A stretch of 64,000 nt of DNA from an uncultured Cohaesibacter sp. (GTDB taxonomy: Bacteria; Pseudomonadota; Alphaproteobacteria; Rhizobiales; Cohaesibacteraceae), in NCBI RefSeq assembly GCF_963682185.1, contig NZ_OY821667.1, positions 4,787,501 to 4,851,500 of the forward strand, written 5' to 3'. The position numbers and the translations under genes are program-made. Under the pieces are notes generated by a model. The model saw nothing but the letters and a program-made list of their open reading frames with translations. It searched no databases and was not told the origin of the DNA. Below are positions 5,785 to 21,872 of the stretch, in pieces (position 1 is the stretch's first letter; every line of letters begins with the position of its first letter).

Positions 5785-5790
5785 TTAGCT

Positions 5791-6609: not shown

Positions 6610-7852
6610 ATTGCGGCGTCTTGTGTATGACTGGGAGCTTTGGGCGCGCCCAGACCAGTTGCCGCCCGATGGTGATTGGATCTCCTGGCTGGTTCTTGGC
6701 GGGCGCGGCGCTGGTAAAACGCGCACGGGCGCAGAATGGGTCAAGGCGCTGGTGCAAGGGCGGCCGCCCTTTGCGTCCCAGCCCTATGGACGCATCGCGC
6801 TGATTGGAGAAACCCTGCAGGATGCCCGTGATGTGATGGTGGAAGGGGTATCCGGCCTGTTGGCTATTCACGACAAACAGGACCGGCCAAACTGGCAACC
6901 GTCCCGACGTCGGCTGGAATGGCCCAATGGAGCGGTTGCTCAGATCTTTTCCGCTGAAGACCCGGAAAGCTTAAGGGGGCCGCAGTTTGGGGCGGCATGG
7001 GGCGATGAGCTGGCCAAATGGCGTCACGCAGAAGCCACTTGGGACATGTTGCAATTTGGTCTGCGCCTTGGTCAAAAGCCACGCCAGATTGTAACCACGA
7101 CACCAAAGCCCACACCTTTGCTCAAGAGGTTGATGGCCGATCCGACATCTGCAATCAGCCATGCTCCAACACGAGCCAACCTGGCCAATCTGGCGCCGGG
7201 CTTTCTGGATACGATCGTGCGCCGCTATGAAGGGTCGCGTCTTGGGCGGCAGGAACTGGACGGAGAATTGATTGAAGACAGGGCCGATGCGCTTTGGAAG
7301 CGCGATCAGCTCGACCGGCTGAGGGTTGATGATCCTCCCGCGACCCTCAGCCGGATTGTGGTCGCCATTGACCCGCCTGCGACCTCTGGCAAAAGCGCCG
7401 ATGCCTGTGGCCTTGTTGTCGCAGGGCTTGATGGAGATGGGCTGTGTTTCATTCTAAGAGACAGCACGCTTAACAGTGCAAGCCCCACAGCTTGGGCCAA
7501 CAAGGCCATCGCGCTCTATCATCGCTTCGAAGCCGATTGCGTTGTGGCGGAAGTCAATCAGGGCGGGGAGATGGTAACCACTATTCTCGACAATATTGAT
7601 GCAAGCGTGCCGGTGCGATCCGTGCGGGCGACCCGCGGTAAATATCTGCGCGCTGAGCCTGTCAGTGCTCTTTACGAGCAAGGCAGGGTGCGCCATGTCG
7701 GCAACATGGCCGAACTGGAAGATGAAATGTGTGACTTCGGGCTAGATGGTCTGACGTCTGGAAAAAGCCCCGATAGGCTCGATGCCATGGTTTGGGCTGT
7801 GACGCATCTCTGCCTCGCTGACCGGTCTCAACCGAAAGTCCGGGCAATCTGA
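6491..7852 (+). CDS. GTA large terminase, DNA-packaging ATPase/nuclease (g2)
   Basis: The motor that packs and cuts DNA. From ATG 6491 it has 453 residues; AGAGGACGG lies just upstream, and ATGs at 6461 and 6485 are alternatives. Walker A is GGRGAGKT (70-77), followed by RTGAEWV. A Walker B-like segment is FGAAWGDELAKW. The TTTPKPTPLLK coupling motif and a C-terminal RNase H-like nuclease domain, beginning IVVAIDPPATSG with later acidic residues (EVNQGGEM, DRLDAMVWA), are all present. This is the most diagnostic packaging gene of the cluster and appears intact. Confidence 0.93.
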   Translation: MTETMIQAPLTSSAKSLRAALMDSSKDLQANFLASLTPNELRRLVYDWELWARPDQLPPDGDWISWLVLGGRGAGKTRTGAEWVKALVQGRPPFASQPYGRIALIGETLQDARDVMVEGVSGLLAIHDKQDRPNWQPSRRRLEWPNGAVAQIFSAEDPESLRGPQFGAAWGDELAKWRHAEATWDMLQFGLRLGQKPRQIVTTTPKPTPLLKRLMADPTSAISHAPTRANLANLAPGFLDTIVRRYEGSRLGRQELDGELIEDRADALWKRDQLDRLRVDDPPATLSRIVVAIDPPATSGKSADACGLVVAGLDGDGLCFILRDSTLNSASPTAWANKAIALYHRFEADCVVAEVNQGGEMVTTILDNIDASVPVRSVRATRGKYLRAEPVSALYEQGRVRHVGNMAELEDEMCDFGLDGLTSGKSPDRLDAMVWAVTHLCLADRSQPKVRAI

Positions 7853-7879
7853 CACAGCAAGAAAGGAAGGAAGAAGCAA

Positions 7880-9151
7880 ATGCTTCGCTGGACCTTGAAA
7901 GGGCCGGCGCGTTCGCGCTCGCCTCAAATTCACAAAGCCAAGTCAAACGCCACTGATCTCGCAGCAGATACTGGCGCCCTGGAAGGCAAAAATTCTCGGA
8001 CCGGCGCTCTTGTTTCTGTGCACCAGACAGGGCGCCCGCGCTGGACACCACGAGATTATGGCGCTTTGGCCATGCAGGGCTATGCGCGTAACCCGATCGT
8101 CTATCGGTCTATCCGCATGATCTCAGAAGCTGCTGCTTCTGCCACCGTCTATTGCCTAGTGGGGGGAGAAAGACTGACCGAGCATCCAGTGCTTGATCTT
8201 CTGCATCACCCGAATGAACGGCAGGATGGTGCGACATGGCTTGAAAGCCTTTATGGCCATCTGCTTGTTTCCGGCAATGCCTATATTGAGGCCGTTTTCG
8301 GCGCTAGCAGTTTGAAGGAATTGCATTGTTTGCGGCCAGACAGGATGAAGGTCGTGCCCGGTCCAAACGGCTGGCCAGATGCTTACGACTATACCATTGG
8401 CAACAAGGCAGTGCGGTTTCATCAGAATGACGATAGCGCACGTGTGCCGCCGATCCTGCATATCACCCTGTTCCACCCGCATGATGATCACTATGGACTC
8501 AGTCCGCTGGAAGCGGCGCAAACCAGTCTCGATGTGCACAATGCGGCCGCCAGTTGGAACAAGGCGTTGCTAGACAACTCCGCCCGCCCATCTGGTGCGC
8601 TGGTTTATGCGGCTTCTGAAGCAGGAAATCTCAGTGACGAGCAATTTGAACGTCTCAAGAAGGAACTAGAAGAAGGCTATCAAGGGGCAATGAATGCTGG
8701 ACGCCCTTTGCTGCTTGAAGGAGGGCTGGATTGGAAGAGCATGAGCATGTCGCCGCGTGATATGGACTTCATCGACGCCAAGAATAGCGCAGCTCGAGAA
8801 ATCGCTCTGGCTTTTGGTGTCCCGCCCATGTTGCTCGGCATTCCCGGAGACAACACCTATTCAAACTATGCCGAAGCGAACCGGGCCTTCTGGCGTCAAA
8901 CGGTTCTGCCACTGGCGAGCCGCTGTTTGCAAAATATCGCTCGCTGGCTTTCGCCTGCTTATGACGAGACGTTCGATTTGAAGATTGATCTTGATCTCAT
9001 CTCCGCATTGGCAAGCGAGCGGGAGGCGCTCTGGAACCGCGTCGGCAATGCGTCCTTCCTCACAGAAAATGAAAAACGCACCGCAGTCGGCTACAGCCCG
9101 ACGGAAGCACCAAGGAGCACGACCCGCAGCACAAGTGAGGGAGGGAAATGA
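7880..9151 (+). CDS. GTA portal protein, HK97 family (g3)
   Basis: A 423-residue portal protein forming the ring at one capsid vertex through which DNA passes. Typical HK97-type blocks are present: YARNPIVYRSIRMISEAAAS (about 58-77), HHPNERQDGATWLESLYGHLLVSGNAY, LHITLFHPHDDHYGLSPLEAA, and the C-terminal AFGVPPMLLGIPGDNTYSNYAEA. It follows the large terminase after 27 bases with GGAAGGAAG upstream. Length is normal. The stop codon lies one base before the GTG of the next small gene. Confidence 0.92.
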   Translation: MLRWTLKGPARSRSPQIHKAKSNATDLAADTGALEGKNSRTGALVSVHQTGRPRWTPRDYGALAMQGYARNPIVYRSIRMISEAAASATVYCLVGGERLTEHPVLDLLHHPNERQDGATWLESLYGHLLVSGNAYIEAVFGASSLKELHCLRPDRMKVVPGPNGWPDAYDYTIGNKAVRFHQNDDSARVPPILHITLFHPHDDHYGLSPLEAAQTSLDVHNAAASWNKALLDNSARPSGALVYAASEAGNLSDEQFERLKKELEEGYQGAMNAGRPLLLEGGLDWKSMSMSPRDMDFIDAKNSAAREIALAFGVPPMLLGIPGDNTYSNYAEANRAFWRQTVLPLASRCLQNIARWLSPAYDETFDLKIDLDLISALASEREALWNRVGNASFLTENEKRTAVGYSPTEAPRSTTRSTSEGGK

Positions 9152-9152
9152 T

Positions 9153-9332
9153 GTGGCAGATGCTTTGCAGATTTTCGCAACAAAGGGAGATCTGGCCCAT
9201 GTTGCGCTCTTTCTCTGGGCCAGTGCGGCCAGTGGCTTGCTCGTCTGGAGCTTGCGAGAACAGGCTGCATCCAACAAGCGCTTTCAGGATTTTGTCGAGG
9301 AGATTGCGCGCCTCACCAGTTTGCTCGAATAG
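9153..9332 (+). CDS. Small GTA membrane protein after portal
   Basis: A 59-residue protein, MADALQIFATKGDLAHVALF then one membrane helix (LFLWASAASGLLVWSL, about 19-35) and a charged tail. It starts at GTG 9153, five bases after AGGGAGGG and one base after the portal stop. Small proteins of this type occur between portal and protease genes in many gene transfer agent clusters as I recall. The function is unknown; a membrane location is inferred from the helix. A longer frame from 8985 merely overlaps the portal gene. Confidence 0.65.
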   Translation: MADALQIFATKGDLAHVALFLWASAASGLLVWSLREQAASNKRFQDFVEEIARLTSLLE

Positions 9333-9363
9333 TAAACTCAAATTCAGTTTATTTTGGGGTGTT

Positions 9364-9474
9364 GTGGAAAGGCCAGATCACAAGAAGGTCTTTGCTCGCT
9401 TTTCCCGTTCTCTGGAAGCGCATCTGGGCCATGAACCGGTTGCACGCATCCGCCTCATCTCCACATCAATGTGA
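9364..9474 (+). CDS. Possible 36-residue small protein
   Basis: A short frame from GTG 9364 encodes a basic 36-residue peptide beginning MERPDHKKVFARF. It fills most of the 160-base gap between the small membrane protein and the prohead protease. The upstream TTGGGGTG is a poor ribosome site. There is no family match by eye, and it may be chance. Confidence 0.25.
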   Translation: MERPDHKKVFARFSRSLEAHLGHEPVARIRLISTSM

Positions 9475-9492
9475 AACAATAGATATAAGCTT

Positions 9493-10233
9493 ATGAAATA
9501 TATCGATGTCTATCACGCTTCAAAGCATTGCTCTAACCTGAACACAGAGAAGAAGGCGCTGCCGTCTGCTCTGGATGTTGTTAAGGATGATGGGCTGTTT
9601 GAAGGCTATGCCTGCCTGTTTGGCAAAGAAGATCTTGGCCATGATGTAATCCGACAGGGCGCCTTTGCCAAGAGCCTTGCTGACCGCGGGCTGGACGGGA
9701 TCAAGCTGCTTTATCAGCATGATCCGGCGCAGCCAATCGGTCAGTGGCTGACCATCCGGGAAGACAGCAAGGGGCTATTCGTCCGTGGCAAGCTGGCAAC
9801 CGAAGTCGCCAAAGCGCGCGAAATCCTCTCGATGATGAAGGCCGGTATTCTGGATGGCCTCTCCATTGGTTTTCGCACCGTGCGCGGAAGTAAAGATCCC
9901 AAGAGCGGTATCCGTCATTTGCTGGAGTTGGATCTTTGGGAAATCTCCATCGTCACCTTCCCGATGCAGCCGGACGCGCGCATCTCTTCGGTTAAATCAA
10001 GGCTGGGGGCTGGGGCTGGTTTGCAGCCTGATGACGATCCCCTCAGCAAAAGAGAATTGGAACGCAAGCTCATGCAGGACGCTGGGCTGAGCCGTTCCCA
10101 GGCCCGGGCCCTCATGGCCCATGGTCTCCCTGGCCTCAGTGGCAAGCAGGACGCTGCCTTTCTTGAGCCCTCATGCGAGCTTGCGGCCTTGCGCAAGTTG
10201 ACCCGAGCCATGCTCAGGGCAGTAAACGTTTAG
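9493..10233 (+). CDS. GTA prohead maturation protease (g4)
   Basis: A 246-residue HK97-type serine protease that trims the capsid protein during head assembly. Conserved elements are FEGYACLFGKEDLGHDVIRQGAF, LLYQHDPAQPIGQW with the catalytic histidine, DGLSIGFRTV with the serine, and LLELDLWEISIVTFPM with the acidic residue. The C-terminal 60 residues form a variable tail rich in charged residues. It precedes the capsid gene by 52 bases, as in all gene transfer agents of this type. Confidence 0.9.
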   Translation: MKYIDVYHASKHCSNLNTEKKALPSALDVVKDDGLFEGYACLFGKEDLGHDVIRQGAFAKSLADRGLDGIKLLYQHDPAQPIGQWLTIREDSKGLFVRGKLATEVAKAREILSMMKAGILDGLSIGFRTVRGSKDPKSGIRHLLELDLWEISIVTFPMQPDARISSVKSRLGAGAGLQPDDDPLSKRELERKLMQDAGLSRSQARALMAHGLPGLSGKQDAAFLEPSCELAALRKLTRAMLRAVNV

Positions 10234-10285
10234 GCCTTTTGGATCTCGCAAACCTTCACTCATTTCAAACGAAAAGAGTCTTCTC

Positions 10286-11554
10286 ATGAAAGAACTGAAT
10301 ATCCCGTCTCCTGAGACGAAGTCCATGGTCAATGGAGACCTCGGAACGGCCTTTGACGACTTTCTGGTCTCCTTTGAAGCTTTCAAGCGCGCCAATGATG
10401 ATCGCCTTGATGAAATCGAGAAACGGTCTTCCGATGTGCTGACAGAGCACAAGGTCGATCGCATCTCCAAGGCTCTGGATGATCAGCAGTCAGCCCTCGA
10501 CAACCTCATCCTCAAGGCCCGCCGACCTTCTCTTGGTGATGGGGTGTCTTCGGCGCGCAATGCTTCCCTGCTGTCTCCTCGCGCTATGGAACACAAGACG
10601 GCTTTTAATCGATACATTCGCTCCGGTGTCGAGCAGGATTTGCGTGATCTGGAAGCCAAGGCCATGTCCATCAGCTCTGATCCTGATGGCGGCTATCTGG
10701 TGCCGGAACAGGTTGAAGCGGAAGTCGGGCGCCGTCTTGCGGCTATTTCTCCGATCCGTGGCATCGCCGATGTGCGTGAAATTTCAGGTACGACCTTGAA
10801 AAAGCCTTTCGCCAAATCGGGGCCGGAAGTCGGTTGGGTTGGTGAAACGGCTGCGCGTCCTCAGACTGATGCTTCAGCTTTGGCCGAGTTGTCCTATACG
10901 GCAATGGAGCTTTATGCCATGCCTGCTGCGACGCCTAGCTTGCTTGAAGATGCGGCGATCAATGTTGACGAATGGATTGCTGCGGAAGTGGAAACCGCCT
11001 TTGCCGAACAGGAAGGGGCTGCCTTCGTCAATGGTGATGGCGTTAACAAGCCAAAAGGCTTCATGGCTGAAACCGTGGTGGCTGAAGACAGCTGGGCCTG
11101 GGGCTCCCTGGGGGCCATCGCGACAGGAACTGCAGGTGGATTTGGTTCGACCAACCCCGGCGATCCGCTCATTGATCTAATCTACAGCCTCAAGGCAGGG
11201 TATCGGCAGAATGCGCAGTTCGTGATGAACCGAACGACGCAGGCCGCGGTTCGCAAGCTCAAAGACAATGATGGTAACTATCTCTGGCAGCCGCCAGCAG
11301 CCATCGGTGCCAAAGCTTCTTTGCTGAACTATGCCATCACTGAAGCGGAAGATATGCCGGACATTGCAACAGACGCCTGTGCTATGGCCTTCGGAGACTT
11401 CAAGCGCGGTTATCTCATCGTCGATCGCCTCGGCCTGAGCATTCTGCGCGATCCATATTCCTCCAAGCCATATGTTCTGTTCTATGTAACCAAGCGTGTC
11501 GGTGGTGGTGTTCAGGACTATGACGCCATCAAGCTGATGCAGTTCTCTGCCTGA
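10286..11554 (+). CDS. GTA major capsid protein, HK97 fold (g5)
   Basis: The 422-residue head protein. The first ~85 residues are charged and helical (FLVSFEAFKRANDDRLDEIEK), matching the scaffolding delta domain that the protease removes. The rest carries HK97-fold blocks: SSDPDGGYLVPEQVEAEV (about 130-147), LKKPFAKSGPEVGWVGE, AAFVNGDGVNKPKGF, FVMNRTTQAAVRKLKD, and the C-terminal DPYSSKPYVLFYVTKRVGGGV. It is intact and expected to be the most highly expressed gene of the cluster. Confidence 0.94.
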   Translation: MKELNIPSPETKSMVNGDLGTAFDDFLVSFEAFKRANDDRLDEIEKRSSDVLTEHKVDRISKALDDQQSALDNLILKARRPSLGDGVSSARNASLLSPRAMEHKTAFNRYIRSGVEQDLRDLEAKAMSISSDPDGGYLVPEQVEAEVGRRLAAISPIRGIADVREISGTTLKKPFAKSGPEVGWVGETAARPQTDASALAELSYTAMELYAMPAATPSLLEDAAINVDEWIAAEVETAFAEQEGAAFVNGDGVNKPKGFMAETVVAEDSWAWGSLGAIATGTAGGFGSTNPGDPLIDLIYSLKAGYRQNAQFVMNRTTQAAVRKLKDNDGNYLWQPPAAIGAKASLLNYAITEAEDMPDIATDACAMAFGDFKRGYLIVDRLGLSILRDPYSSKPYVLFYVTKRVGGGVQDYDAIKLMQFSA

Positions 11555-11579
11555 TTGTTTCATTTGTAATGGTGAAGAA

Positions 11580-12140
11580 ATGTCACTCACTCTTTTGACC
11601 GCACCGGCAGTGGAACCGGTCAGCCTTGCAGAAATCAAGGCTTATTTGAAGATCGATCAGGATACCGAAGATGATCTGATCCGTGCCTTTTTGAGCGCGG
11701 CTCGTGTGCATCTGGAACATATGATCGGTCATCACCTTATCACTCAAACCTGGCGCGTTTTGATGGAAGGGCCGCTGGGGGAGAGTTTTCGTTTACCGCT
11801 GCAGCCGGTATCTGATCTCTTGGCACTTGCTGTCGTCAATGTTGATGGAAGTGTGACCGAACTGGACGTCTCCGGGCTTTCCATTTTCCAAACCGACAAT
11901 CCGGCAACGCTCGCCAATCTCGATGGCTTTCTGCTGAGCAGCAAACAACGCCTTCAGATCGATGTTGAAACTGGCTTCGGCCCCATGGCGGAAGATGTGC
12001 CAGAGCCTTTGCGGCTGGCGATCAAGATGATCGTCGCCGAATGGTATGAGCGTCGTCTGATCGCTGATCCAGCGCAACTGCCTGCGTTGGCTAAAGCATT
12101 GGCGCCTCTGATTGCACCCTACAGAAGCTTTCATCTTTAG
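11580..12140 (+). CDS. GTA head-tail connector (g6)
   Basis: A 186-residue adaptor of the gp6/phiE125 gp8 type that binds under the portal. It begins MSLTLLTAPAVEPVSLAEIKAYLKID, a typical opening for the family, followed by ATEDDLI-like and RVHLEHMIGHHLI segments and a C-terminal helix pair (LRLAIKMIVAEWYERR). A ribosome site (GGTGAAGAA) precedes ATG 11580. The next gene starts 51 bases later. Confidence 0.85.
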   Translation: MSLTLLTAPAVEPVSLAEIKAYLKIDQDTEDDLIRAFLSAARVHLEHMIGHHLITQTWRVLMEGPLGESFRLPLQPVSDLLALAVVNVDGSVTELDVSGLSIFQTDNPATLANLDGFLLSSKQRLQIDVETGFGPMAEDVPEPLRLAIKMIVAEWYERRLIADPAQLPALAKALAPLIAPYRSFHL

Positions 12141-12191
12141 GTCATTTCAAGGGAAATGATTGATCTTTCAATCTCAAAACAGGAGGGTGCC

Positions 12192-12551
12192 GTGGCACAA
12201 ACAGCTCTCGCTCCCTTTCAATTCGATCCTGCCGGATTACGCCATCAGATTGCGCTGTACCAGCCGATCTATGATGAAGCAGCCCCTTGGGAAGGTGCGG
12301 AAACGCTCGAACTGGTGGCTGAGGTCTGGGCAGGTCTTCTTGCGGTGGATAGCAACGAGCGAACCAACGCAGAACAGGCAAGCAACAGTCTATCGCTTCG
12401 CTTTGTTATCCGTCACCGTGAAGGTCTCGAGCCGTTAACTGCGCTTACTTACGAGAATGCGCTTTATGACTGTCTGAGCATTCATGATCCAGATGGCACG
12501 AAACGCTGGCTATTGATTGAGGCACGCACCAGATTGGGAGCGCAGTCATGA
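12192..12551 (+). CDS. GTA head closure protein (g7)
   Basis: A 119-residue protein of the phage head-tail adaptor family that seals the head and joins the tail. The start is GTG 12192 because AGGAGGG (12181-12187) lies five bases before it; an ATG at 12156 in the same frame lacks such a site. Family features are RHQIALYQPIYDEA, EVWAGLLAV, LRFVIRHREGLEP, and the C-terminal RWLLIEARTRLGAQ. Its stop overlaps the start of the next small gene. Confidence 0.8.
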   Translation: MAQTALAPFQFDPAGLRHQIALYQPIYDEAAPWEGAETLELVAEVWAGLLAVDSNERTNAEQASNSLSLRFVIRHREGLEPLTALTYENALYDCLSIHDPDGTKRWLLIEARTRLGAQS

Positions 12552-12805
12552 GTATCAAACTCAATGCAATAGCTCGACGCATCTTGTCTGACCGTCTGGA
12601 ATCCTATGCCGAAACAATCACCAGTCAGGCATCGGCAGAGGGTACGGATATTTCCGTTGAAACCGATCTTTCGGAAGATGGCGGCTCAATTAGCCTATCC
12701 GGCAATCAACTGCTCCAAGCTCATTATGGTGATCGGGAGAACGCGCCCTCCGGTTTTGTTTCCAGTCTCCTTGAGGGGCTGACACAGCAAAGGAGACGCG
12801 TATGA
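12548..12805 (+). CDS. Small protein between head closure and tail terminator
   Basis: An 85-residue protein (MSIKLNAIARRILSDRLESYAE) with an N-terminal amphipathic helix and an acidic middle. It overlaps its neighbours by four bases on each side (ATGA junctions), so it is clearly a real, coupled gene. The RcGTA cluster has no recognised gene here between g7 and g8. It may correspond to a shortened HK97 gp10-like protein or may be a lineage-specific connector; I cannot decide. Confidence 0.7.
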   Translation: MSIKLNAIARRILSDRLESYAETITSQASAEGTDISVETDLSEDGGSISLSGNQLLQAHYGDRENAPSGFVSSLLEGLTQQRRRV

Positions 12806-13218
12806 CCAGTTTGTCCTCCGGTGCGCTGGAACAGGCTATCTTGTCGTCTTTTAAAAGTGACAGTGCCCTGATTTCATTGCTTGGTGGGGTACGGCTCTAT
12901 GACGAGCCCAAACGAAATGCACAATTTCCCTATCTTACGCTGACCACGAGCTATTCACGCGATTGGAGCACGGGCACCGAAACAGGGGAAGAGCACCGCA
13001 TTATCATAACCATATGGACAGCAGCCGATGACCGCTCGCGGCAACAGGATATTCTCGCGCGCCTCAGCACCCTGTTGGAAGCGTTTGAGCCTGACATGAC
13101 CGACCATGCCCTGATCAATCTTCTTGTCGAGCGCATTGAGCTGCGCCCTGATCGTAAAAACCATCTGCTTCAGGGCATTATGCAGTTGAGGGCCGTGACG
13201 GAACGCTCACTCGGTTGA
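12802..13218 (+). CDS. GTA tail terminator, DUF3168 family (g8)
   Basis: A 138-residue protein that caps the tail tube before head attachment. The DUF3168 pattern is clear: ALEQAILSSFKSDSALISLLGGVRLYDEPKRNAQFPYLTL near the start, then IITIWTAADDRSRQQDILARL and the C-terminal LLQGIMQLRAVTE. It overlaps the preceding small gene by four bases and lies 53 bases before the major tail gene. Confidence 0.87.
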   Translation: MTSLSSGALEQAILSSFKSDSALISLLGGVRLYDEPKRNAQFPYLTLTTSYSRDWSTGTETGEEHRIIITIWTAADDRSRQQDILARLSTLLEAFEPDMTDHALINLLVERIELRPDRKNHLLQGIMQLRAVTERSLG

Positions 13219-13271
13219 TCCAGCGTTCATTACGCAAATGTTTTTCATTTTGAATATCAGGAGAAATCTCC

Positions 13272-13685
13272 ATGACAGCACAAAAAGGCAAGGACCTTTT
13301 GCTCAAGGTGCACAACACCACCGAAGACGCATTCATCACTGTAGCAGGTTTGCGAGCCCGTTCGCTCTCGTTCAACGCCGAAAGTGTAGATATCAGTCAC
13401 ACGGAATCCGCAGGGCGTTGGCGGGAGCTGCTTGAAGGGGCCGGGTCACGCCGAGCCAGCCTCTCGGGTAGTGGACTCTTCAAAGACAGCGAGAGCGATG
13501 AACGTATCCGGTCATTGTTCTTTGATGGCACCATCGCCTCCTGGCAGGTGATCATCCCGGATTTTGGAACCCTTGAAGGACCATTCCAGATCACGGCGCT
13601 GGAATATTCTGGTCAGCATAACAACGAATTGTCGTTTGAGATGGCGCTGGAATCTGCTGGCGCACTCGCCTTTACAGCCTCTTGA
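13272..13685 (+). CDS. GTA major tail protein, TP901-1 family (g9)
   Basis: A 137-residue tail-tube subunit. It has the family opening MTAQKGKDLLLKV, then FITVAGLRARSLSFNAESVDISHTES, WRELLEGAG and the C-terminal NNELSFEMALESAGALAFTA. GGAGAAATCTCC, which is also a small palindrome, precedes the ATG. Its TGA shares a base with the ATG of g10 (13683-13687), indicating translational coupling. Confidence 0.9.
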   Translation: MTAQKGKDLLLKVHNTTEDAFITVAGLRARSLSFNAESVDISHTESAGRWRELLEGAGSRRASLSGSGLFKDSESDERIRSLFFDGTIASWQVIIPDFGTLEGPFQITALEYSGQHNNELSFEMALESAGALAFTAS

Positions 13686-14116
13686 TGAAGGACCAATTCA
13701 CAATGGTGAACAGACGACGAGGCGAAATTTCGCTCACTCTTGATAATAAACCGTACGCTCTTTGTCTAACCCTCGGGGCTCTGGCTGAGTTGGAAGATAG
13801 CATGGAGCTCGATGATATTGGTGCTCTTGCAGATCGTTTCTCTGGTGGCAAGGTAAAAAGCGCAGATCTGGTGAAAATTCTGGGGGCCGCTTTGCGTGCT
13901 GGAGGGGCCAATGTCACGGATAAAGAGGCTGCTTCGATGCGTTGTAAGGGAGGGGCTCCAGTCCTCACAACTGCGCTAGTTGACTTGTTAAGAGAGACAT
14001 TTAGCCCCGAACCTGAGAATGGTGCTCGGGAACCCTCGTATAAGGTCGAAGGACTATCCTCAAGTGAGGGAGGGCAGAACTCTGGCCCAAACCCCGGGAA
14101 GGCCGGTCTGGTTTAA
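13685..14116 (+). CDS. GTA tail assembly chaperone g10, upstream frame
   Basis: A 143-residue GTA gp10-family protein: MVNRRRGEISLTLDNKPYALCLTLGALAELEDSM, then LADRFSGGKVKSADLVKILGAALRAGG. The first 100 residues are conserved. The last 35, from about residue 110, are low-complexity Gly, Ser and Pro. Translation probably starts at ATG 13685, overlapping the g9 stop, or at ATG 13703. A canonical slippery heptamer lies in its tail at 14086-14092, and the overlapping -1 frame encodes the second chaperone domain. Confidence 0.85.
   Translation: MKDQFTMVNRRRGEISLTLDNKPYALCLTLGALAELEDSMELDDIGALADRFSGGKVKSADLVKILGAALRAGGANVTDKEAASMRCKGGAPVLTTALVDLLRETFSPEPENGAREPSYKVEGLSSSEGGQNSGPNPGKAGLV
14086..14092 (+). 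promoter_or_regulatory. Putative -1 ribosomal frameshift site CCCAAAC
   Basis: The heptamer C CCA AAC is in register with the g10 reading frame and can re-pair as CCC AAA in the -1 frame, which is the X XXY YYZ pattern. Downstream, CCGGT (14103-14107) can pair with ACTGG (14116-14120), and CCGG (14094-14097) with CCGG (14103-14106), as stimulatory structure. The -1 frame is open from 14068 to 14316 and lacks an ATG, GTG or TTG before its conserved domain. Confidence 0.6.
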
Positions 14117-14316
14117 CTGGATCGGCCTCTTCTATTGCATGCTTCCCATGGGCAACTCTGTTTGTCACGGCAAGCCAGCAGCTTGGTTGGACACCACCGG
14201 AGATTTGGGCGGCAACACCCAAGGAGGTGCTATTGGCTCTGAGCGTTCCTGCAAAGCATAATCCGTCTATGTCCCGCGAGGATTTTCAGACGCTTAGTGC
14301 GGCTTTTCCTGATTGA
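14086..14316 (+). CDS. GTA second tail chaperone (g10.1, TIGR02216-like), reached by frameshift
   Basis: The -1 frame relative to g10 encodes a domain beginning FPWATLFVTASQQLGW, then TPPEIWAATPKEVLLAL and ending FQTLSAAFPD. That matches the small chaperone (rcc01693/g10.1 type) with its conserved PW, FW-TP-E and AFPD elements. The frame is open from 14068 but has no ATG, GTG or TTG before this domain. Either it is produced as a g10 fusion by -1 frameshifting at 14086-14092, or it uses a rare ATT at 14134. The first option parallels lambda gpG/gpGT. The product would be about 210 residues. Confidence 0.7.
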   Translation, partial: PKPREGRSGLTGSASSIACFPWATLFVTASQQLGWTPPEIWAATPKEVLLALSVPAKHNPSMSREDFQTLSAAFPD

Positions 14317-14404
14317 GGAGGCTTAGTGGCTAATCATCGCGTAGATGGCCATGTTGCCGTTATCATTTTTAATCCTGTGCCCAAAATAGAGAAGGGGGGC
14401 TGAT

Positions 14405-15007
14405 ATGGCTGATGAAGTCGTGGAAACCGCAGTCGTTAAAGTTGAGGCTGATATGAAAGCCTTCACAAAAGACCTTTCAGCTGCAAGCAAGCAAGCCGAG
14501 AGGCTCGGCGACAAGGTTGCTGATGCATTCGAAGATGCGATTGTCGGTGGTCAAAATCTTGAAACGATTTTCAGCAAACTTGCACTTGATGTGAGCAAAA
14601 GCGCGTTATCCTCTGGTTTAGAGCCACTTAAACAACTTGTGTCGAGTTCAATTTCCAGTCTCGCTTCGGGACTGTTTTCCTCGCTCACCTCTTCAAGCGG
14701 GGGGACAGGCTCTTCCTTGCTTGGCAGCTTGACTCCTTTTGCCAAAGGCGGCGTTGTGTCTTCTCCCTCCCTGTTCTCAACATCAACGGGCACCGGATTG
14801 ATGGGGGAAGCCGGTGCCGAGGCCATTCTACCCCTTCAGCGGGGAGCTGACGGGCGATTAGGTGTGGCCATGCCGGGTGCAAGTGGGCAGTCGGTGAATG
14901 TCGTCATGAATGTGAGCACGCCGAACGTTAGCTCATTTTCAAAATCAGAAAACCAGATTGCCACCAAGTTGGCGCGAGCGGTTGGGCGTGGGCGGCGCGG
15001 CCTTTGA
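14405..15007 (+). CDS. GTA tape measure-type protein (g11)
   Basis: A 200-residue protein of the short gene transfer agent tape-measure family. It has an N-terminal coiled segment (VVKVEADMKAFTKDLSAASKQAERL), a Ser- and Leu-rich middle (about 75-115), then GGVVSSPSLF and LMGEAGAEAILPLQRGADGRLGV, the hallmark of this family. AAGGGGGG precedes ATG 14405. It is much shorter than phage tape measures, as usual for these agents. The C-terminus ends in a basic RGRRGL. A terminator hairpin follows. Confidence 0.87.
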   Translation: MADEVVETAVVKVEADMKAFTKDLSAASKQAERLGDKVADAFEDAIVGGQNLETIFSKLALDVSKSALSSGLEPLKQLVSSSISSLASGLFSSLTSSSGGTGSSLLGSLTPFAKGGVVSSPSLFSTSTGTGLMGEAGAEAILPLQRGADGRLGVAMPGASGQSVNVVMNVSTPNVSSFSKSENQIATKLARAVGRGRRGL

Positions 15008-15083
15008 CGTGATGACAATGCGTATCCATGTCGGCCGAATTAGGCTAGGTGGCCAACATCCAATAACCGCCCCAAATACCTAT

Positions 15084-15117
15084 AGGGCTGTTTCCTGCTA
15101 AGGAGACAGCCCTTTTT
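15084..15117 (+). terminator. Intrinsic terminator inside the GTA cluster
   Basis: AGGGCTGTTTCC (15084-15095) can pair with GGAGACAGCCCT (15102-15113), followed by TTTTT. It separates the tape measure gene from the distal tail genes, which lie on the same strand 25 bases further on. Read-through or a downstream promoter is needed for the rest of the tail. Confidence 0.65.
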
Positions 15118-15141
15118 GCTTTGCAAAATTAGGACAAATCA

Positions 15142-15768
15142 ATGAACGGATTTCATGAGATACGCTTTCCCCTTGATGTGGGTTTCGGAGCGTCAGGAGG
15201 GCCAGAGCGGCGGACTGATATTGCAACTTTGGCTTCTGGGTTTGAAGAGCGTAATGCGCGTTGGGCAGATTCCAGACGAAGCTATGATGCAGGTGTTGGG
15301 CTGCGTTCGATTGCGGATTTGCAAACTGTTTTGAGATTTTTTGAGGAGCGTCGCGGGCGGCTCTATGGGTTCCGCTTCCTTGATCCCTTTGATCATGCAT
15401 CTTGTGACGCCGGAAAAACACCCCAATCTACCGATCAACAGATTGGAACCGGCGATGGAGAAACAACGCAATTTGAGCTCGTAAAAACATACGGCACAAA
15501 CTATGCGCCCTATGAACGCAGGATCGTCAAGCCCGTTGAAGGCTCTATCAAGGTTGCACTTGGCGGAGAGGAAACCTCGGCTTGGACCGTGGATGTCACC
15601 ACAGGCATCATCACGTTCGATGAGGCACCCGAGGACGGGGAACTAGTCGCGGCGGGCTTCAAATTTGATGTACCAGTGCGCTTTGATACCGACAAGCTCG
15701 AATTCTCGATCAGTGCATTTGAAGCAGGCGATCTTCCCTCCATTCCATTAATTGAGGTGAAGTCATGA
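15142..15768 (+). CDS. GTA distal tail protein, DUF2460 (g12)
   Basis: A 208-residue TIGR02217/DUF2460 protein at the tail tip. It begins MNGFHEIRFPLDVGFGASGGPERRTDI and contains FFEERRGRLYGFRFLDPFDH, RRIVKPVEGSIKVALGG, and WTVDVTTGIITFDEAPEDGE, all typical. It ends in LPSIPLIEVKS and overlaps the next gene by four bases (ATGA). It is the first gene after the internal terminator. Confidence 0.9.
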   Translation: MNGFHEIRFPLDVGFGASGGPERRTDIATLASGFEERNARWADSRRSYDAGVGLRSIADLQTVLRFFEERRGRLYGFRFLDPFDHASCDAGKTPQSTDQQIGTGDGETTQFELVKTYGTNYAPYERRIVKPVEGSIKVALGGEETSAWTVDVTTGIITFDEAPEDGELVAAGFKFDVPVRFDTDKLEFSISAFEAGDLPSIPLIEVKS

Positions 15769-16658
15769 AAGAGCTTTCTGATGAAATGACTGCTCATCTT
15801 CAAAGTGGAACGACCACGTTGGCCACTTGCTGGATCTTAAAGCGGACTGACGGATATAGCATTGGTTTCACTGACCATGACCGGACTATCGAATTGAATG
15901 GCGTCTCCTGTGAACCTAACACAGGGTTCACAGGCTCGGAAATCCGGCAGAGCGATGGCTTTGCGAGCGATGATCAGGATATTACAGGTGTTCTAGCCTC
16001 CGATCGCATAGCAGAGGCAGATCTTATGACCGGCCGCTATGATGCCGCGACCATTGAAACCTGGTGCGTGAATTGGCAGATGCCTGATCAGGCTCTTTTG
16101 CTGCGGACGGGCTATTTGGGTGAAATCAAGCAAGATCGCCAGAGTTTTCAGGCTGAAATTCGGTCTCTCTCCATCGATATGGAGCAGGAGAAAGGGCGCG
16201 TTTTCCAGTATCGTTGTGATGCCAATGTCGGTGATACCAGATGTGGGCTCAATCTTGATGAGCTGGGGCTCACTTTCACAGGAGTTGTCAGTGAGATTAA
16301 ATCTCCGAACTGGTTGGCGGTCACACTGGAAACGCGCCCTGAAGCCGGGCTCCTTTCCATGGGGCGCCTTGAAATGACCTCTGGTGCGGCCGAGGAAATG
16401 GCTTTTGACATCATTTCTCACCAACAATTGAGTGAAAGCGATGAGGTCGAGTTGTGGCTTCCATTGCATGAGCAGATTGCAGCAGGAGATGGCGTAAAAG
16501 TTTTTGTTGGATGCGACAAGAGCTTTTCGACGTGTCGCAAGCAGTTTGCGAACCAACTCAATTTCCGAGGATTCCCCCATATGCCGGGGAACGATTTCAT
16601 TCTTACCTATCCCTCGCTTTCGCAACAGAATGATGGATCTCCCCTTATTGAGGATTAG
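15765..16658 (+). CDS. GTA hub protein, DUF2163/BR0599 (g13)
   Basis: A 297-residue baseplate hub protein. N-terminal DUF2163: LATCWILKRTDGYSIGFTDHDRTI, then DVNVGDTRCGLNLD-like cysteine segments (residues about 146-160). C-terminal BR0599 domain: FVGCDKSFSTCRKQFANQLNFRGFPHMPG, where paired cysteines suggest a metal or iron-sulfur site, as reported for the R. capsulatus protein. Coupled to g12 by a four-base overlap. A 360-residue open frame on the opposite strand here is a shadow. Confidence 0.9.
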   Translation: MKELSDEMTAHLQSGTTTLATCWILKRTDGYSIGFTDHDRTIELNGVSCEPNTGFTGSEIRQSDGFASDDQDITGVLASDRIAEADLMTGRYDAATIETWCVNWQMPDQALLLRTGYLGEIKQDRQSFQAEIRSLSIDMEQEKGRVFQYRCDANVGDTRCGLNLDELGLTFTGVVSEIKSPNWLAVTLETRPEAGLLSMGRLEMTSGAAEEMAFDIISHQQLSESDEVELWLPLHEQIAAGDGVKVFVGCDKSFSTCRKQFANQLNFRGFPHMPGNDFILTYPSLSQQNDGSPLIED

Positions 16659-16661
16659 AAG

Positions 16662-17135
16662 ATGGTGGACGAAACAACCACAGATGTCAGCGCTGCCTTG
16701 ATCATCTCTGAAGCGCTCAGTTGGATTGGAACGCCTTACAAGCATCAGGCAAGCTGCAAGCATGCTGGCTGTGATTGTTTGGGGCTGATCCGCGGTGTCT
16801 ACTCTGCCTTCTGGCCAGAAACAGAACAGCCACCGGCTTATAGTCCTAACTGGGCGGAGGCGAACAGCGAAGAAACGCTTGCCAATGCGGCGAAGAGATA
16901 TCTGCTGCCGGTTGATCAGGATGTGCTTTCCCCATCCAACATACTGCTCTTTCGTTACAAAAGAGGCTATCCGGCTAAGCATGCTGGGATGCTGATTGAT
17001 GAAACCCGCTTTCTTCATGCGCAAGATGGTGTTGGAGTGCAGCTTGTTTCTCTTTCTCCATGGTGGATGAGGCATCTATCTCATGTTTTCGCGTTTCCGC
17101 CCCTTCCTTCTGCTCCAAAAACCGGAATTGAATAG
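16662..17135 (+). CDS. GTA NlpC/P60 cell-wall peptidase (g14)
   Basis: A 157-residue tail-tip peptidase thought to open the recipient's peptidoglycan. The NlpC/P60 catalytic cysteine is in CDCLGLIRGVY (Cys39), with histidine in KHAGM (His107) and a further polar residue near His119. The substrate-side segment ALSWIGTPYKHQASCKHAG is standard for the TIGR02219 family. It starts three bases after the g13 stop and ends two bases before the g15 start, in a tight operon. Confidence 0.92.
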   Translation: MVDETTTDVSAALIISEALSWIGTPYKHQASCKHAGCDCLGLIRGVYSAFWPETEQPPAYSPNWAEANSEETLANAAKRYLLPVDQDVLSPSNILLFRYKRGYPAKHAGMLIDETRFLHAQDGVGVQLVSLSPWWMRHLSHVFAFPPLPSAPKTGIE

Positions 17136-17137
17136 AA

Positions 17138-20100
17138 ATGACCACTCTCGTTTTGAAATCCGTGGGCAGTGTCGTCGGTGGAGCCCTGTTTGGGCCGTTG
17201 GGGGCCGCAATTGGGGGAGCTCTTGGTGCTGTTGGAGGCTACCAGCTGGACCAGACGCTGTTTGGCACGTCCCGATCTGTAGAGGGCCCCAGTCTTTCTG
17301 ATCTGTCAGTGCAAACCTCAACAGAAGGCTCTTCCATTCCGCGCCTTTACGGGCGTGCCCGTCTGACTGGGCAGATTATCTGGGCGACCAATCTCGTTGA
17401 GGAAGTTACATCGCGTAAATACAAAACAGGAGCTTCCAAGGGCGGAAGCGGATCTTCAACCACAGAGACGACTTACAGCTACTTTGCCAATTTTGCGGTT
17501 GGGCTCTGCGAAGGAGAGATTGCCTATATCGGACGTGTCTGGGCAAATGGGTCAATTCTGGATCTGAAGGACATCAGCTACAGGGTCTATCGCGGTACGG
17601 ATGATCAGCTACCAGATAGCCTGATTGAGGCCAAGCAGGGAACCGATTATGCTCCAGCCTATCGTGGGCTGGCCTATGTTGTATTTGAAAAGTTGCCGTT
17701 GGAAGATTTCGGCAACCGCATACCGCAATTATCTTTCGAAGTTGTTCGGCCAATCGGCACTCTGGAAAATCAGATTGAATCTATCGTCATGATTCCGGGC
17801 TCCACTGAGTTTGGCTATGACACAACAGAAGTTCTGCGCAAGGACGGAGAAGGAGAGTGGAGTTCGGAAAACCGACATTCCTATGAACAGGGAACCGATT
17901 TTGAAGTGTCTCTGGATCATCTGATCGCTCTTTGTCCAAATCTGACCAACATCGCTCTCGTTGTGGCATGGTTTGGAACAGACTTACGCGCAGGATCTTG
18001 TGCGATCCAGCCGAAAGTCGATAATAGTGACAAGACAACATCAGGAGATCAATGGTCTGTTGCTGGCCTTAGTAGGGCCGAGGCTCAAAGTGTTTCTGTT
18101 ATTGAAGGAAGAGCGGCCTATGGAGGAACGCCTTCCGACGCTTCAGTCATTAGGGCGATAGAGGCAATCAAGGAACGCGGCCTCAATGTCACTCTCTATC
18201 CATTCATCATGATGGATATCGCTTCGGGTAATGGTCTCACAGACCCGTATGGAGCTGAAGAGCAAGCGCCGTTCCCATGGCGAGGACGCATTACCTGCTA
18301 TCCAGGGCCTGAGCAGGAAGAAACTGCGGATCAAACTTCCCTTGCTTCCGATCAGGTAGCGACTTTTTACTCCTCGCAAACCTGGAGCTACTCCCGATTC
18401 ATCATGCACTATGCGCAGCTGGCTGTGGAGGCCGGAGGCGTTGAGGGGATGCTTATTGGGTCTGAATTGCGTGGTCTGACACAAATTCGCGATGATTTGG
18501 GCAATTATCCCTTCGTATCTTGCCTTAAGGCATTGGCGGCAGATGTGCGAGACTGTGTGGGTCATGACACCAAGATCACTTACGGGGCAGACTGGAGCGA
18601 ATATTTCGGCCATCACCCACAAGATGAGACTGGAACCGTTCGCTTTAACCTCGATCCTCTTTGGTCCGATGACAATATTGATGCTGTTGGCATCGACAAC
18701 TATATGCCCATGTCAGATTGGCGGGCTGGAGAAGACCATCTGGATGCGAGCCTGGCTGATACGGGGCTTGAGCAATCCTATCTTCAGACTAATATTGCAG
18801 GCGGAGAAGGATATGACTGGTACTATGCAAGTCAGGCCGATCGTGATCAGCAGATTAGAACGCCCATAACAGATGGCGCTGCAGACAAGCCTTGGGTCTA
18901 TCGATTTAAGGACATCGTAAATTGGTGGTCTAACGCCCATTTCAATCGCGATCTGGATGTCGAAAGTGACACGGCAACCGATTGGGAGCCGTGCTCCAAG
19001 CCGATTTGGTTTACAGAGATTGGATGCCCTGCTGTGCATTTGGGGCCCAATCAACCCAATGTGTTTCCAGATGCAAAATCTTCTGAATCGTCCTTGCCAT
19101 ATTATTCTTCCGGAGCAAGGAGTGATGCGGCTCAGCGGGCCCTGCTGGAAGCCGGTCTTGACTATTGGCAAACTCAATCGGAGCAAATCAACCCGCTTTC
19201 TCCCGTCTATGGAGAAAGAATGGTCGCTTCTGATCAGATCTATCTTTGGGCTTGGGATGCGCGCCCATTTCCCGCTTTCCCTCTAAGCAGTGATACATGG
19301 TCCGATGGTGCAGCCTGGCATACGGGACATTGGCTTAACGGGCGCTTGGGGGGCGCTCCGGTGCAAGATATTGTGCGCACGGTGATGCAGGATTTCGAGC
19401 TATCTGACCCTGAATTCGTAGCGGTTCCGGTCGCTGTCGATGGATTTGTGATTGATAGTCGCATGTCGGCTCGCTCCGCGCTTGAAAGCTTGTGTGATGC
19501 ATTTGGTATTTCTTTTGTAACCAGCGGCAATAAGTTGCGGTTTGAATTGCAGGAGCGTCGGGCGAGCAAACAGATCAATATCACTGGGCTTGTCGATGAA
19601 TTGGATGAACCCATTCTCAATATGCAGATTGATCCTTGGGAAGATGAAGCATCCAGTGTGACTTTGTCTTTTGGTGAGCTGTTCTATGATTATCGCTCTT
19701 CGGTGGCACGTTATGATCAGCCATCTGCCAGAACCCGAAAGGAAAGCTCCAAATCTTTGGCTGTTATCTCAACTGACCCAATCATGGTCAATGTCGCCAA
19801 AAGCTGGCTTCGACAGAAAAACTATGCTCGCCATACGGTGCAATTCAAACTGCCTTTGTCTATGGCTGCTCTGGAAGCCGGCGATTTGATTGCACTTGAA
19901 GGAGTGGGCGAGCAGAAAGTTTATTGCATCAACGAGATAGAAGATGGAACTATGCGGGAAGTGTCGGCCACCTTGGCGGCTCCTCGCAACTCGGCCCCAT
20001 TGGCTAAAGATCTCCGAGTGACCTCCTCTTCCAAGCCTGTTGTCACACGGGCTGTATGCTTTGCCATGGATTTGCCTGTGCTTCCGAGCAAAACAGATTA

Positions 20101-21016
20101 TCCGCATGCACCGTATGTCGCGAGTTATTGCTCTCCCTGGCCGGGTAGCTTGGGCCTTTATGAGGGAAGTGCCGAAACCGGATTTGTCCATCGCCAAAGC
20201 CTCGATATTCCTGCGATCTTTGGTGATTTACAAACTGAACTCGCCGGGCGCGAATGTTTCACTTGGGATATGGCCAGCACGTTGGTGGTCAATTTAAATA
20301 ATGGTGATCTGTCTTCTGTGAGTGACCTTGGCCTACTGTCCGGAGCCAATGCAGCTGCCATCGAAGCCAAAAACGGCGAATGGGAAATTATCCAATTCGC
20401 TAATGCTGAGCTTGTTGGTGAAAGCACATGGAAACTGAGCAAACTTCTTAGGGGGCAGCAAGGCACCGAGACTGCTGCTCTAAGTGGTGCGGACATCGGT
20501 GCTCGATTTGTGCTTTTGGATGAGGCGGTCGCACCTTTGGAAATAGATAGCGGTCAGCTCGATAAGGAGTTGCCTTTCCGGGTTGTAGCGAGTGGTGCAA
20601 CGCTGGATGACGTCAACAATATTGATGTTTCAATCTCTGTTACTGGGCGCGGATTGCGCCCTCTGTCTCCTGTGCACCTGAAGGCGATCAGGCCCGAGAC
20701 AGATGACGGTCTACAGTTCGAGTGGGTCCGCCGGGATCGACTGGAATCCGATAGCTGGGCTGACAGCGCCATACCGCTGAGTGAGAGTGAGGAACGCTAC
20801 ACTGTGGTCATAAGGCATCCTGAAACAGCACAAACTTTGCGTGAGGAAGAAGTTGAGGAAGCGCAGTGGTTCTATTCCGCCAGCGCGCAAGCTGCTGACG
20901 GTGTAACCGAGATGACAGAGATCGCAATTGAGATCGCTCAAGTCAGCCGACGCGTCGGGGTCGGGGACACAGTTTCCCGTCGGGTTTCGCTCAATGATCG
21001 TCGGATCCTCTTCTGA
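17138..21016 (+). CDS. GTA baseplate megatron, TIM-barrel host-interaction protein (g15)
   Basis: The 1292-residue tail-tip protein that contacts the recipient cell. The Gly- and Ala-rich start (GALFGPLGAAIGGALGAVGGYQLD) is typical. A tail-hub region (about 40-250) is followed by a glycoside hydrolase-like TIM-barrel (about 400-760, with ITYGADWSEYFGHHP, IDNYMPMSDWR and WFTEIGCPAVHLGPNQPN). A J-like fibronectin and hub domain (about 770-1050) and a C-terminal domain ending RRILF follow. GFGTEL-like glycosidase acidic residues appear in WFTEIGCP. Length is normal for the family. Confidence 0.92.
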   Translation: MTTLVLKSVGSVVGGALFGPLGAAIGGALGAVGGYQLDQTLFGTSRSVEGPSLSDLSVQTSTEGSSIPRLYGRARLTGQIIWATNLVEEVTSRKYKTGASKGGSGSSTTETTYSYFANFAVGLCEGEIAYIGRVWANGSILDLKDISYRVYRGTDDQLPDSLIEAKQGTDYAPAYRGLAYVVFEKLPLEDFGNRIPQLSFEVVRPIGTLENQIESIVMIPGSTEFGYDTTEVLRKDGEGEWSSENRHSYEQGTDFEVSLDHLIALCPNLTNIALVVAWFGTDLRAGSCAIQPKVDNSDKTTSGDQWSVAGLSRAEAQSVSVIEGRAAYGGTPSDASVIRAIEAIKERGLNVTLYPFIMMDIASGNGLTDPYGAEEQAPFPWRGRITCYPGPEQEETADQTSLASDQVATFYSSQTWSYSRFIMHYAQLAVEAGGVEGMLIGSELRGLTQIRDDLGNYPFVSCLKALAADVRDCVGHDTKITYGADWSEYFGHHPQDETGTVRFNLDPLWSDDNIDAVGIDNYMPMSDWRAGEDHLDASLADTGLEQSYLQTNIAGGEGYDWYYASQADRDQQIRTPITDGAADKPWVYRFKDIVNWWSNAHFNRDLDVESDTATDWEPCSKPIWFTEIGCPAVHLGPNQPNVFPDAKSSESSLPYYSSGARSDAAQRALLEAGLDYWQTQSEQINPLSPVYGERMVASDQIYLWAWDARPFPAFPLSSDTWSDGAAWHTGHWLNGRLGGAPVQDIVRTVMQDFELSDPEFVAVPVAVDGFVIDSRMSARSALESLCDAFGISFVTSGNKLRFELQERRASKQINITGLVDELDEPILNMQIDPWEDEASSVTLSFGELFYDYRSSVARYDQPSARTRKESSKSLAVISTDPIMVNVAKSWLRQKNYARHTVQFKLPLSMAALEAGDLIALEGVGEQKVYCINEIEDGTMREVSATLAAPRNSAPLAKDLRVTSSSKPVVTRAVCFAMDLPVLPSKTDYPHAPYVASYCSPWPGSLGLYEGSAETGFVHRQSLDIPAIFGDLQTELAGRECFTWDMASTLVVNLNNGDLSSVSDLGLLSGANAAAIEAKNGEWEIIQFANAELVGESTWKLSKLLRGQQGTETAALSGADIGARFVLLDEAVAPLEIDSGQLDKELPFRVVASGATLDDVNNIDVSISVTGRGLRPLSPVHLKAIRPETDDGLQFEWVRRDRLESDSWADSAIPLSESEERYTVVIRHPETAQTLREEEVEEAQWFYSASAQAADGVTEMTEIAIEIAQVSRRVGVGDTVSRRVSLNDRRILF

Positions 21017-21116
21017 GGCGTCATGACAATGAGGGGTGGTTGCAGTTCGATATAAATCTGCGACTTCTCCATTTTCAATTGTAAACCCAAATTCAAACAA
21101 CGTTAAGGAGCCTATT

Positions 21117-21326
21117 ATGAGTCTATCCGATCAATCCCCGAAAGCCGCTTGGGAATCCAAAATCAACTGGACACAGCTGGTTGCCGTTATGGCAATGGGG
21201 CTGACGATGTTCGGTATCGATCTTGATTCCGATATCCAGCAACGTCTGGCCGTAACAATTTCCAGCCTGTCTGCTGCGATCACTATTATCTGGCGCACCT
21301 GGTACACAACGCGAAAAATTATCTGA
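21117..21326 (+). CDS. Holin-like small membrane protein
   Basis: A 69-residue protein from ATG 21117, preceded by TAAGGAG (21104-21110). It has the layout of phage-encoded small holin-like proteins: a short N-terminus (KAAWESKINWTQ), a hydrophobic stretch (LVAVMAMGLTMFGI), then DSDIQQRLAVTISSLSAAITIIWRTW, and a basic tail. Holins make holes for lysis. The call rests on sequence style and position behind the tail genes; the precise family is not certain. An upstream in-frame ATG at 21036 lacks a ribosome site. Confidence 0.65.
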   Translation: MSLSDQSPKAAWESKINWTQLVAVMAMGLTMFGIDLDSDIQQRLAVTISSLSAAITIIWRTWYTTRKII

Positions 21327-21334
21327 GAAAACCG

Positions 21335-21634
21335 ATGAGCCTGGTTTTTAATTTGATCGCTATTTTGGTGAAGTTGGCCCCCGCGCTAGCTTCACTGCTC
21401 GCACAACTTGCAAAACTCAGCTCTGATCCATCGCCTGGGTCACATGAGAATACTAACGATCTCGCAGAAAGGCCAAGAACTGCAAAAATGGACTTGCATG
21501 ACGCCATGTTGGCCAAATGGGGAAGGATGGCTGCGCGTGAAGAATGGTTTGTTCCTAATCAGAGTGCTGATGCTTCTTCTATTGAATGTTCCTCTGATGA
21601 GTTGCGCCAAACAGATGGTTTCAAGAGAGAGTGA
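21335..21634 (+). CDS. Small membrane protein, possible lysis accessory
   Basis: A 99-residue protein with an N-terminal membrane helix (about 4-26, rich in Leu and Ala) and a polar remainder. It starts nine bases after the holin-like gene. The downstream half overlaps, in another frame, a gene encoding a lipoprotein with an Rz1-like layout. That nesting suggests it could be the inner-membrane partner, although it lacks the long coiled coil of classical inner spanins. I do not recognise a family. Confidence 0.6.
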   Translation: MSLVFNLIAILVKLAPALASLLAQLAKLSSDPSPGSHENTNDLAERPRTAKMDLHDAMLAKWGRMAAREEWFVPNQSADASSIECSSDELRQTDGFKRE

Positions 21635-21785: not shown

Positions 21786-21832
21786 GGGACGTTCTTCTAT
21801 TTCATGAAAATGACAGTCAAGCGTTCATATTT

Positions 21833-21866: not shown

Positions 21867-21872
21867 ACAGAC

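Follow-up and report, generated by a model that had tools for sequence, protein, structure and literature searches.

Results

Two tail chaperone frames in a GTA-type cluster

The stretch of DNA analysed here (64 000 nucleotides, hereafter the window) lies within a 5.39-Mb single-contig Cohaesibacter genome (G000). Judged from its genes alone, the head-tail region is a gene transfer agent (GTA) cluster of the RcGTA type, with portal, prohead protease, capsid, connector, tail completion, tail tube, g10, g10.5, RcGTA_tape (below cut-off), rcc01695-type distal tail, hub, NlpC peptidase and GTA_megatron families, and it matches the g3-g15 head-tail gene order of RcGTA. The open reading frames at 12156, 12548 and 6461 gave no NCBIfam match. 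As to phage integration, replication or lysogeny genes beside the cluster, frames were listed over 4000-24000; the YcgN-family neighbour at 5116 resembles a gene of the host, and the other flanks were judged by eye. Two chaperone frames lie between the tail tube and the tape measure genes, in the order PF06199, PF11836, PF09550 and RcGTA_tape (the last below cut-off). The features of this segment are as follows, where counts out of 12 refer to the Cohaesibacter loci that bear the element described in the next section:

13272-13685, + strand: g9, major tail (tube) protein, upstream neighbour (PF06199, E = 1.7e-47; TIGR02126, E = 8.6e-31)
13703-14116, + strand: g10, first tail assembly chaperone, 137 aa, frame 0 (PF11836, E = 1.3e-22)
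14066-14074, + strand: SD-like tract GAGGGAGGG, candidate frameshift stimulator, 14 nt 5' of the heptamer
14068-14316, + strand: -1 open frame without ATG, GTG or TTG, ending in TGA at 14314-14316
14086-14092, + strand: overlapping heptamer C CCA AAC (2/12 loci, G000 and G002)
14089-14095, + strand: putative slippery heptamer A AAC CCC in frame-0 register (11/12 loci)
14101-14127, + strand: putative stimulatory hairpin, 12-bp stem (14101-14112 / 14116-14127) and 3-nt loop, after a 5-nt spacer from the heptamer
14143-14313, + strand: second chaperone domain, g10.5 (Phage_TAC_6 / rcc01693 family), from FPW to FPD (PF09550, E = 3.6e-15)
14405-15007, + strand: g11, tape measure protein, downstream neighbour (NF058675 RcGTA_tape, E = 1e-46, below cut-off)

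The g10 gene runs from an ATG at 13703 to a TAA at 14114-14116. An initial annotation of the window had described the frame of the second domain as open from 14068, -1 relative to g10 and devoid of ATG, GTG and TTG, and had placed CCCAAAC at 14086-14092 in the register C CCA AAC; both descriptions are borne out by the letters of the window. The g10.5 domain was also matched by TIGR02216, under the cut-off of that model (E = 3.2e-5).

An AlphaFold model of g10 has a mean pLDDT of 76.8, falling below 50 over residues 104-124 and 126-137, so that the shift point would lie in a flexible tail of the protein, a would-be linker. Compared with BFVD, the model retrieved several entries named tail assembly chaperone (best E = 7e-4, probability 1.00, TM 0.58/0.67), alongside others named tail tube or carrying no name, and the modelled fold thus resembles predicted phage tail assembly chaperones. 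The same fold had no match in the PDB at E ≤ 0.001, and the g10 profile found a single, chance-level match among PDB sequences (E = 0.4).

A heptamer and hairpin element conserved in Cohaesibacter

PF09550 is present in 15 of 18 Cohaesibacter genomes, and the best locus of each is paired with g10. Twelve of these 15 g10/g10.5 loci, the window included, carry the full element, that is, the heptamer, 5 nt and the 12-bp hairpin. A covariance model of the element, searched against 397 genomes of the order, recovered a single site per genome in 12, all of them Cohaesibacter, and none in the other 385 (E ≤ 0.01, stricter filters). The remaining three loci are those of G012 and G007, where an ATGA start overlaps the g10 stop and the hairpin is missing, and of G017, which has A AAC CCG without the hairpin. 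The G012 and G007 loci (L017 and L033) could represent either a switch of expression mode within the genus or a different cluster lineage. Three genomes (G016, G015 and G011) hold second, weak PF09550 matches elsewhere (L043, L044 and L045, respectively), for which the g10 profile found no partner.

The initial annotation had proposed conservation of CCCAAAC, or of another X XXY YYZ heptamer, among relatives as a check. CCCAAAC recurs in only two of the 12 loci (window included), whereas the overlapping AAACCCC at 14089-14095 is found in 11; the twelfth, G001, reads A ACC CCC, a non-canonical heptamer, and its hairpin is perfect all the same. The distance from heptamer to FPW is 57 nt in all 12. 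Nine of the 12 loci contain no ATG, GTG or TTG in the stretch between the point where the -1 frame opens and the domain. In the other three a potential start lies after the hairpin and before the domain (ATG in G011, TTG in G014, GTG in G015), and its SD pairing is weak (about -4.1 kcal/mol). A start codon in close relatives, which had been named as evidence that would speak against frameshifting, is present in G007 and G012 as ATGA but is not conserved among the 12 loci sharing the element.

Possible stimulatory hairpins had also been suggested downstream of the heptamer, and one stem (14101-14112 / 14116-14127) is indeed conserved, its stimulatory role being a prediction. Stem, 3-nt loop and 5-nt spacer align without gaps in 12/12 loci, with 11 or 12 of the 12 pairs formed in each. 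Paired cells make up 97.2% of the stem on the alignment, compared with at most 51.4% when the stem is slid by 1-3 columns, and the covariation score of 0.318 exceeds that of shuffles (0.215, sd 0.025; 0/500 as high) and of slid stems (at most 0.085). Two-sided, compensatory changes occur in two stem pairs (8 cells). Shuffles are not exceeded on two of the five covariation measures, namely the numbers of double-change pairs (reached by 325/500) and of further pair types (184/500). Folded alone, 14093-14140 gives a centroid of -20.2 kcal/mol with a z of -3.5; in a 131-nt context the hairpin is still formed, the whole not being unusually stable (z -0.87). The g10 stop falls at the foot of the stem in seven loci and at the loop in five, and the hairpin therefore keeps step with the heptamer and not with the stop. 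In Rfam, the window had no match at gathering scores, and 13900-14500 had none at E ≤ 1.

The g11-g12 interval contains a separate, strong terminator-like hairpin with a T run at 15084-15113 (AGGGCTGTTTCCTGCTAAGGAGACAGCCCT TTTTG). A near-perfect g11-g12 stem recurs in five of the 12 Cohaesibacter loci (L025, L028, L031, L032 and L041), counted from the heptamer at +985 to +996, and in L027 at +966. Attenuation inside the GTA operon is a possible role for this hairpin.

An SD-like tract upstream of the heptamer

A strong SD-like tract, defined as anti-SD pairing of -9 kcal/mol or better between 30 and 10 nt before the heptamer, lies 9-14 nt 5' of the heptamer in nine of the 12 element-bearing loci. 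By the same definition such tracts are found in 27/49 other A AAC CCN loci, 5/10 GGGAAA loci and 25/26 CCCTTT loci, and not in the CCCAAA set, which consists of one locus; controls from the g10 body, unmatched in composition, averaged -4.7 to -5.0 for the same sets. The median spacing to the heptamer is 14, 10.5, 9.5 and 12 nt for Cohaesibacter, other A AAC CCN, GGGAAA and CCCTTT loci, respectively, with a wide spread. In comparison, ATGA/GTGA loci have a strong tract in 11 of 35, at a median of 4 nt before the start. From these positions we infer that the spacing of the tract fits -1 stimulation better than initiation.

Overlap modes across the order and the class

The 194 loci surveyed in the order are a subset of those detected (235 of 397 genomes matched; 80 of 554 confirmed stretches kept), made up of the loci listed and one more for each further genus. 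Four of them gave no pair; with repeat loci (L001 and L047-L069) left out of the count, 190 g10/g10.5 pairs were obtained, some genomes being represented twice. The second frame is -1 to g10 in 178 pairs, +1 in 10 and frame 0 with an intervening stop in two, and none of the 190 is a natural in-frame fusion. Long open frames that we considered as natural fusions proved to be mostly -1 frames running under g10.

Within the 178 -1 pairs, 66 combine a heptamer with no start, 19 have a heptamer and another start, 79 have a start that overlaps the stop of g10 (a heptamer is also present in 27) and 14, including G001, have neither start nor canonical heptamer. An ATGA overlap is itself a -1 relation, so the -1 frame alone proves nothing; the informative quantity is the register of the heptamers. 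Across 169 distinct overlaps (repeat overlaps and those shorter than 7 nt being left out), X XXY YYZ heptamers number 110 in the slip register against 11 and 9 in the other two, and without Cohaesibacter the counts are 94, 6 and 9 in 154 overlaps. Of 151 unique g10 tails, 96 contain a slip-register heptamer, where codon shuffling predicts 28.9; for A AAC CCN the numbers are 61 observed and 2.9 predicted.

Many Rhizobiaceae-like loci read A AAC CCT TGA, and the apparent TTG 'start' there is therefore part of the slip site. The -1 reading KPLxAA was seen by eye in 21 of 25 A AAC CCY loci whose g10 stop directly follows the heptamer, where the K, the P and mostly the L are fixed, being dictated by heptamer and stop; the remaining 24 A AAC CCN loci outside Cohaesibacter show more variation at this place. 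For the SD and KPLxAA analyses one heptamer was used per locus where several exist, and L139 and L140 (second copies of the G015 and G017 loci) were left out of both and of the tree below. Two further lines of evidence were set aside. A switch of codon periodicity at the heptamer was weak, with an unexpected upstream order in one of three sets, and CCCTTTC sites, present in many other genera, were discounted as strong evidence in that they coincide with P-F-P-W coding.

The same mixture was met in a class-wide sample, where PF09550 was present in 22/192 genomes and 20 further loci yielded 19 pairs: GGGAAAG/A, CCCTTTC/T or AAACCCT in 11, ATGA in three and other or neither in five. On a quick tree of g10, which as a short protein cannot separate gain from loss, 95 rows were labelled slip and 47 start, 45 of the 187 rows had no clear label, and at least 21 changes of mode were counted (L018 was left out). 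Two loci that probably represent one genome twice, L086 and L193, fit neither mode, having no overlap heptamer and no start; a CCCAAACCC string follows their g10 stop, just before FPW.

A search of viral contigs with the g10 protein gave eight pattern matches, among which no relative was confirmed. Two public 'phage' contigs, examined out of four matched records (L240, 1239-1463 of MW462191.1; L241, 1236-1463 of MW091529.1), carry a GTA-like g10 with A AAC CCT TGA and a -1 frame reading KPL[N/S]AA...FPW. The second gene is annotated there from an ATG inside the domain, and its front is consequently lost.

Predicted frameshift product and alternative explanations

From the frames, the missing start, the heptamer and the conserved, covarying hairpin, all observed, we infer slippage itself, its efficiency and the function of the fusion along the following lines. 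Most ribosomes would end g10 normally and yield the 137-aa protein. In a fraction of them, whose P and A sites hold AAC and CCC, respectively, the tRNAs would re-pair one base back as AAA/CCC, while the 12-bp hairpin 5 nt ahead would make the ribosome pause and the SD-like tract behind it would probably aid the slip. Reading would then continue from 14095 through the linker into the second domain. The predicted fusion comprises 204 aa, 131 from g10 and 73 from the -1 frame, and ends at the TGA at 14314-14316; the initial annotation had put its size at ~210 residues. Its junction is predicted as ...GQNSGPNP followed by REGRSGLTGSAS..., reading ...SGPNP-REGRS... across, and the junction peptide GPNPREG would be identical for a slip on either heptamer. 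By analogy with lambda gpG/gpGT, both products, g10 and the fusion, would chaperone the tape measure protein in a set ratio while the tail is assembled (PMC5009743 for lambda).

In our view the locus is best read (probability roughly 0.92) as a programmed -1 frameshift that links g10 to g10.5 at one or the other of the overlapping heptamers, because of the conserved heptamer, the covarying hairpin, the 5-nt spacing, the 57-nt distance to the domain, the lack of a conserved start and the spacing of the SD-like tract. The proposal that a -1 shift links the two chaperones has thereby gained support from comparison between genomes. Translation of g10.5 on its own, from a non-standard start (ATT, ATC or CTG) or by reinitiation after the g10 stop, with an incidental overlap, has in our estimate a slim chance of being correct. 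Related lineages do have an overlapping ATG or GTG start, and the window offers an ATT four codons 5' of FPW, but no start-like codon is conserved, G002 and G009 are also devoid of CTG, ATT, ATC and ATA before the domain, and neither the fixed spacing between heptamer and hairpin nor the register bias would be explained. We regard as highly improbable that the hairpin is a transcription attenuator, a terminator or some other RNA or DNA element apart from frameshifting. The stem stands 5 nt after the heptamer in 12/12 loci wherever the g10 stop falls, and it is the sole position among the long stems scanned to recur in all 12; the T-rich CTTCTATT that follows it in the window, where it is listed as terminator-like, has no counterpart in most relatives when the alignment is inspected by eye.

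Within the frameshift reading, the window and G002 have both heptamers, overlapping and in register, and slippage there could in principle take place on C CCA AAC (14086-14092) instead of A AAC CCC. This is unlikely given that the former occurs in two loci and the latter in 11, and that the constant 5-nt spacing belongs to A AAC CCC. Decay or sequencing error as the origin of the split frame, to which nothing but the missing start would point, is refuted by the fact that 12 genomes share this split together with heptamer and hairpin and have kept the domain.

Several observations count against the preferred frameshift reading: the non-canonical heptamer of G001, the possible starts in G011, G014 and G015, the three Cohaesibacter loci that lack the element, the two covariation measures on which shuffles are not exceeded, the ordinary stability of the 131-nt context, the unmatched SD control and the 14 -1 pairs with neither start nor canonical heptamer. 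In addition, A AAC CCN may be a weak slip site. In E. coli tests, as given in the accessible portion of PMC4066793, A_AA.C_CC.A was among three motifs that stayed under threshold with the strongest stimulator. The same portion describes 64 heptamers tested and gene families then sought with 21 of them; none of these 21 is A AAC CCN, and such sites would presumably escape that survey.

Discussion

Our analysis points to a known kind of frameshift, that of lambda G/GT, in what is apparently a new setting, a GTA. The lambda-type tail chaperone frameshift was reportedly described by Xu, Hendrix and Duda in 2004, and the lambda heptamer is G GGA AAG. The available part of PMC5009743 presents the lambda gpG/gpGT tail chaperone pair as having relatives in many tailed phages. 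As far as those sources go, the Cohaesibacter locus is like lambda in that a pair of chaperone frames separates the tail tube gene from the tape measure gene, the second frame being in -1, with an X XXY YYZ junction. It differs from lambda in residing in a GTA, in its A AAC CCC heptamer with 12-bp hairpin and SD-like tract, and in that an overlapping start takes the place of the shift in many sister loci. Tail chaperone frameshifts have also been described for the phiCbK group, on AAAAAAC and GGGAAAC (PMC3556154), and for Rhodobacter capsulatus phages (PMC8601537 and PMC4882933, in excerpts). These share with Cohaesibacter the tail chaperone genes, the -1 shift and the bacterial class; they are, however, true phages, the heptamers of the phiCbK kin are different, and the passages available do not extend the finding to GTAs.

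For RcGTA itself, the part of PMC11409702 consulted gives g10 (tail chaperone 1) and g10.5 (tail chaperone 2) the names of two genes, and the main text of that paper contains the word 'frameshift' 0 times; in the main text of the RcGTA structure paper (PMC7296036), chaperone, g10 and frameshift do not occur. The g10 proteins of Cohaesibacter and RcGTA both belong to PF11836, and from its place and name RcGTA g10.5 is presumably the PF09550 / rcc01693 gene. A +1 shift proposed in a hydrolase of a possible Wolbachia GTA (PMC10299305, in the section available) is a separate matter. In the openly accessible literature searched, in part as excerpts or listings, we found no report of a tail chaperone frameshift in a GTA. 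What is surprising is less the kind of event than its presence and upkeep in a GTA, its A AAC CCY heptamer and the repeated changes between this mode and an overlapping start.

The composition of the element has parallels in unrelated genes. The E. coli dnaX frameshift employs a heptamer with an upstream SD-like tract and/or a downstream structure. IS3-family signals are likewise built from a heptamer with an SD-like tract and/or downstream structure, according to the portion of PMC4066793 seen. The Cohaesibacter element resembles both in this combination, within what that portion covers, and is unlike them in its genes and heptamer.

Taking these observations together, we propose that GTAs of the RcGTA type in alphaproteobacteria have inherited and actively keep the chaperone frameshift; that its main site in the Hyphomicrobiales-like order sampled is A AAC CCY, poor by E. 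coli rules and backed by the SD-like tract and, in Cohaesibacter, by the hairpin; and that an overlapping ATGA start has replaced the frameshift on repeated occasions, perhaps with returns to frameshifting. We give this joint proposal an even chance of being right. If it holds, alphaproteobacterial ribosomes or tRNAs would have slip preferences of their own, and the coexistence of frameshift and overlapping start would offer a natural experiment on what the fusion contributes. On the practical side, automated annotation can miss or truncate g10.5, as in L240 and L241. The cassette and its compensatory changes have been kept in 12 species of one genus, suggesting that tail-assembly stoichiometry is under selection, or was until lately. 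This bears on the debate as to whether GTA clusters are relics or maintained machines: if the proposal is true, selection on chaperone stoichiometry would still be acting on domesticated GTAs.
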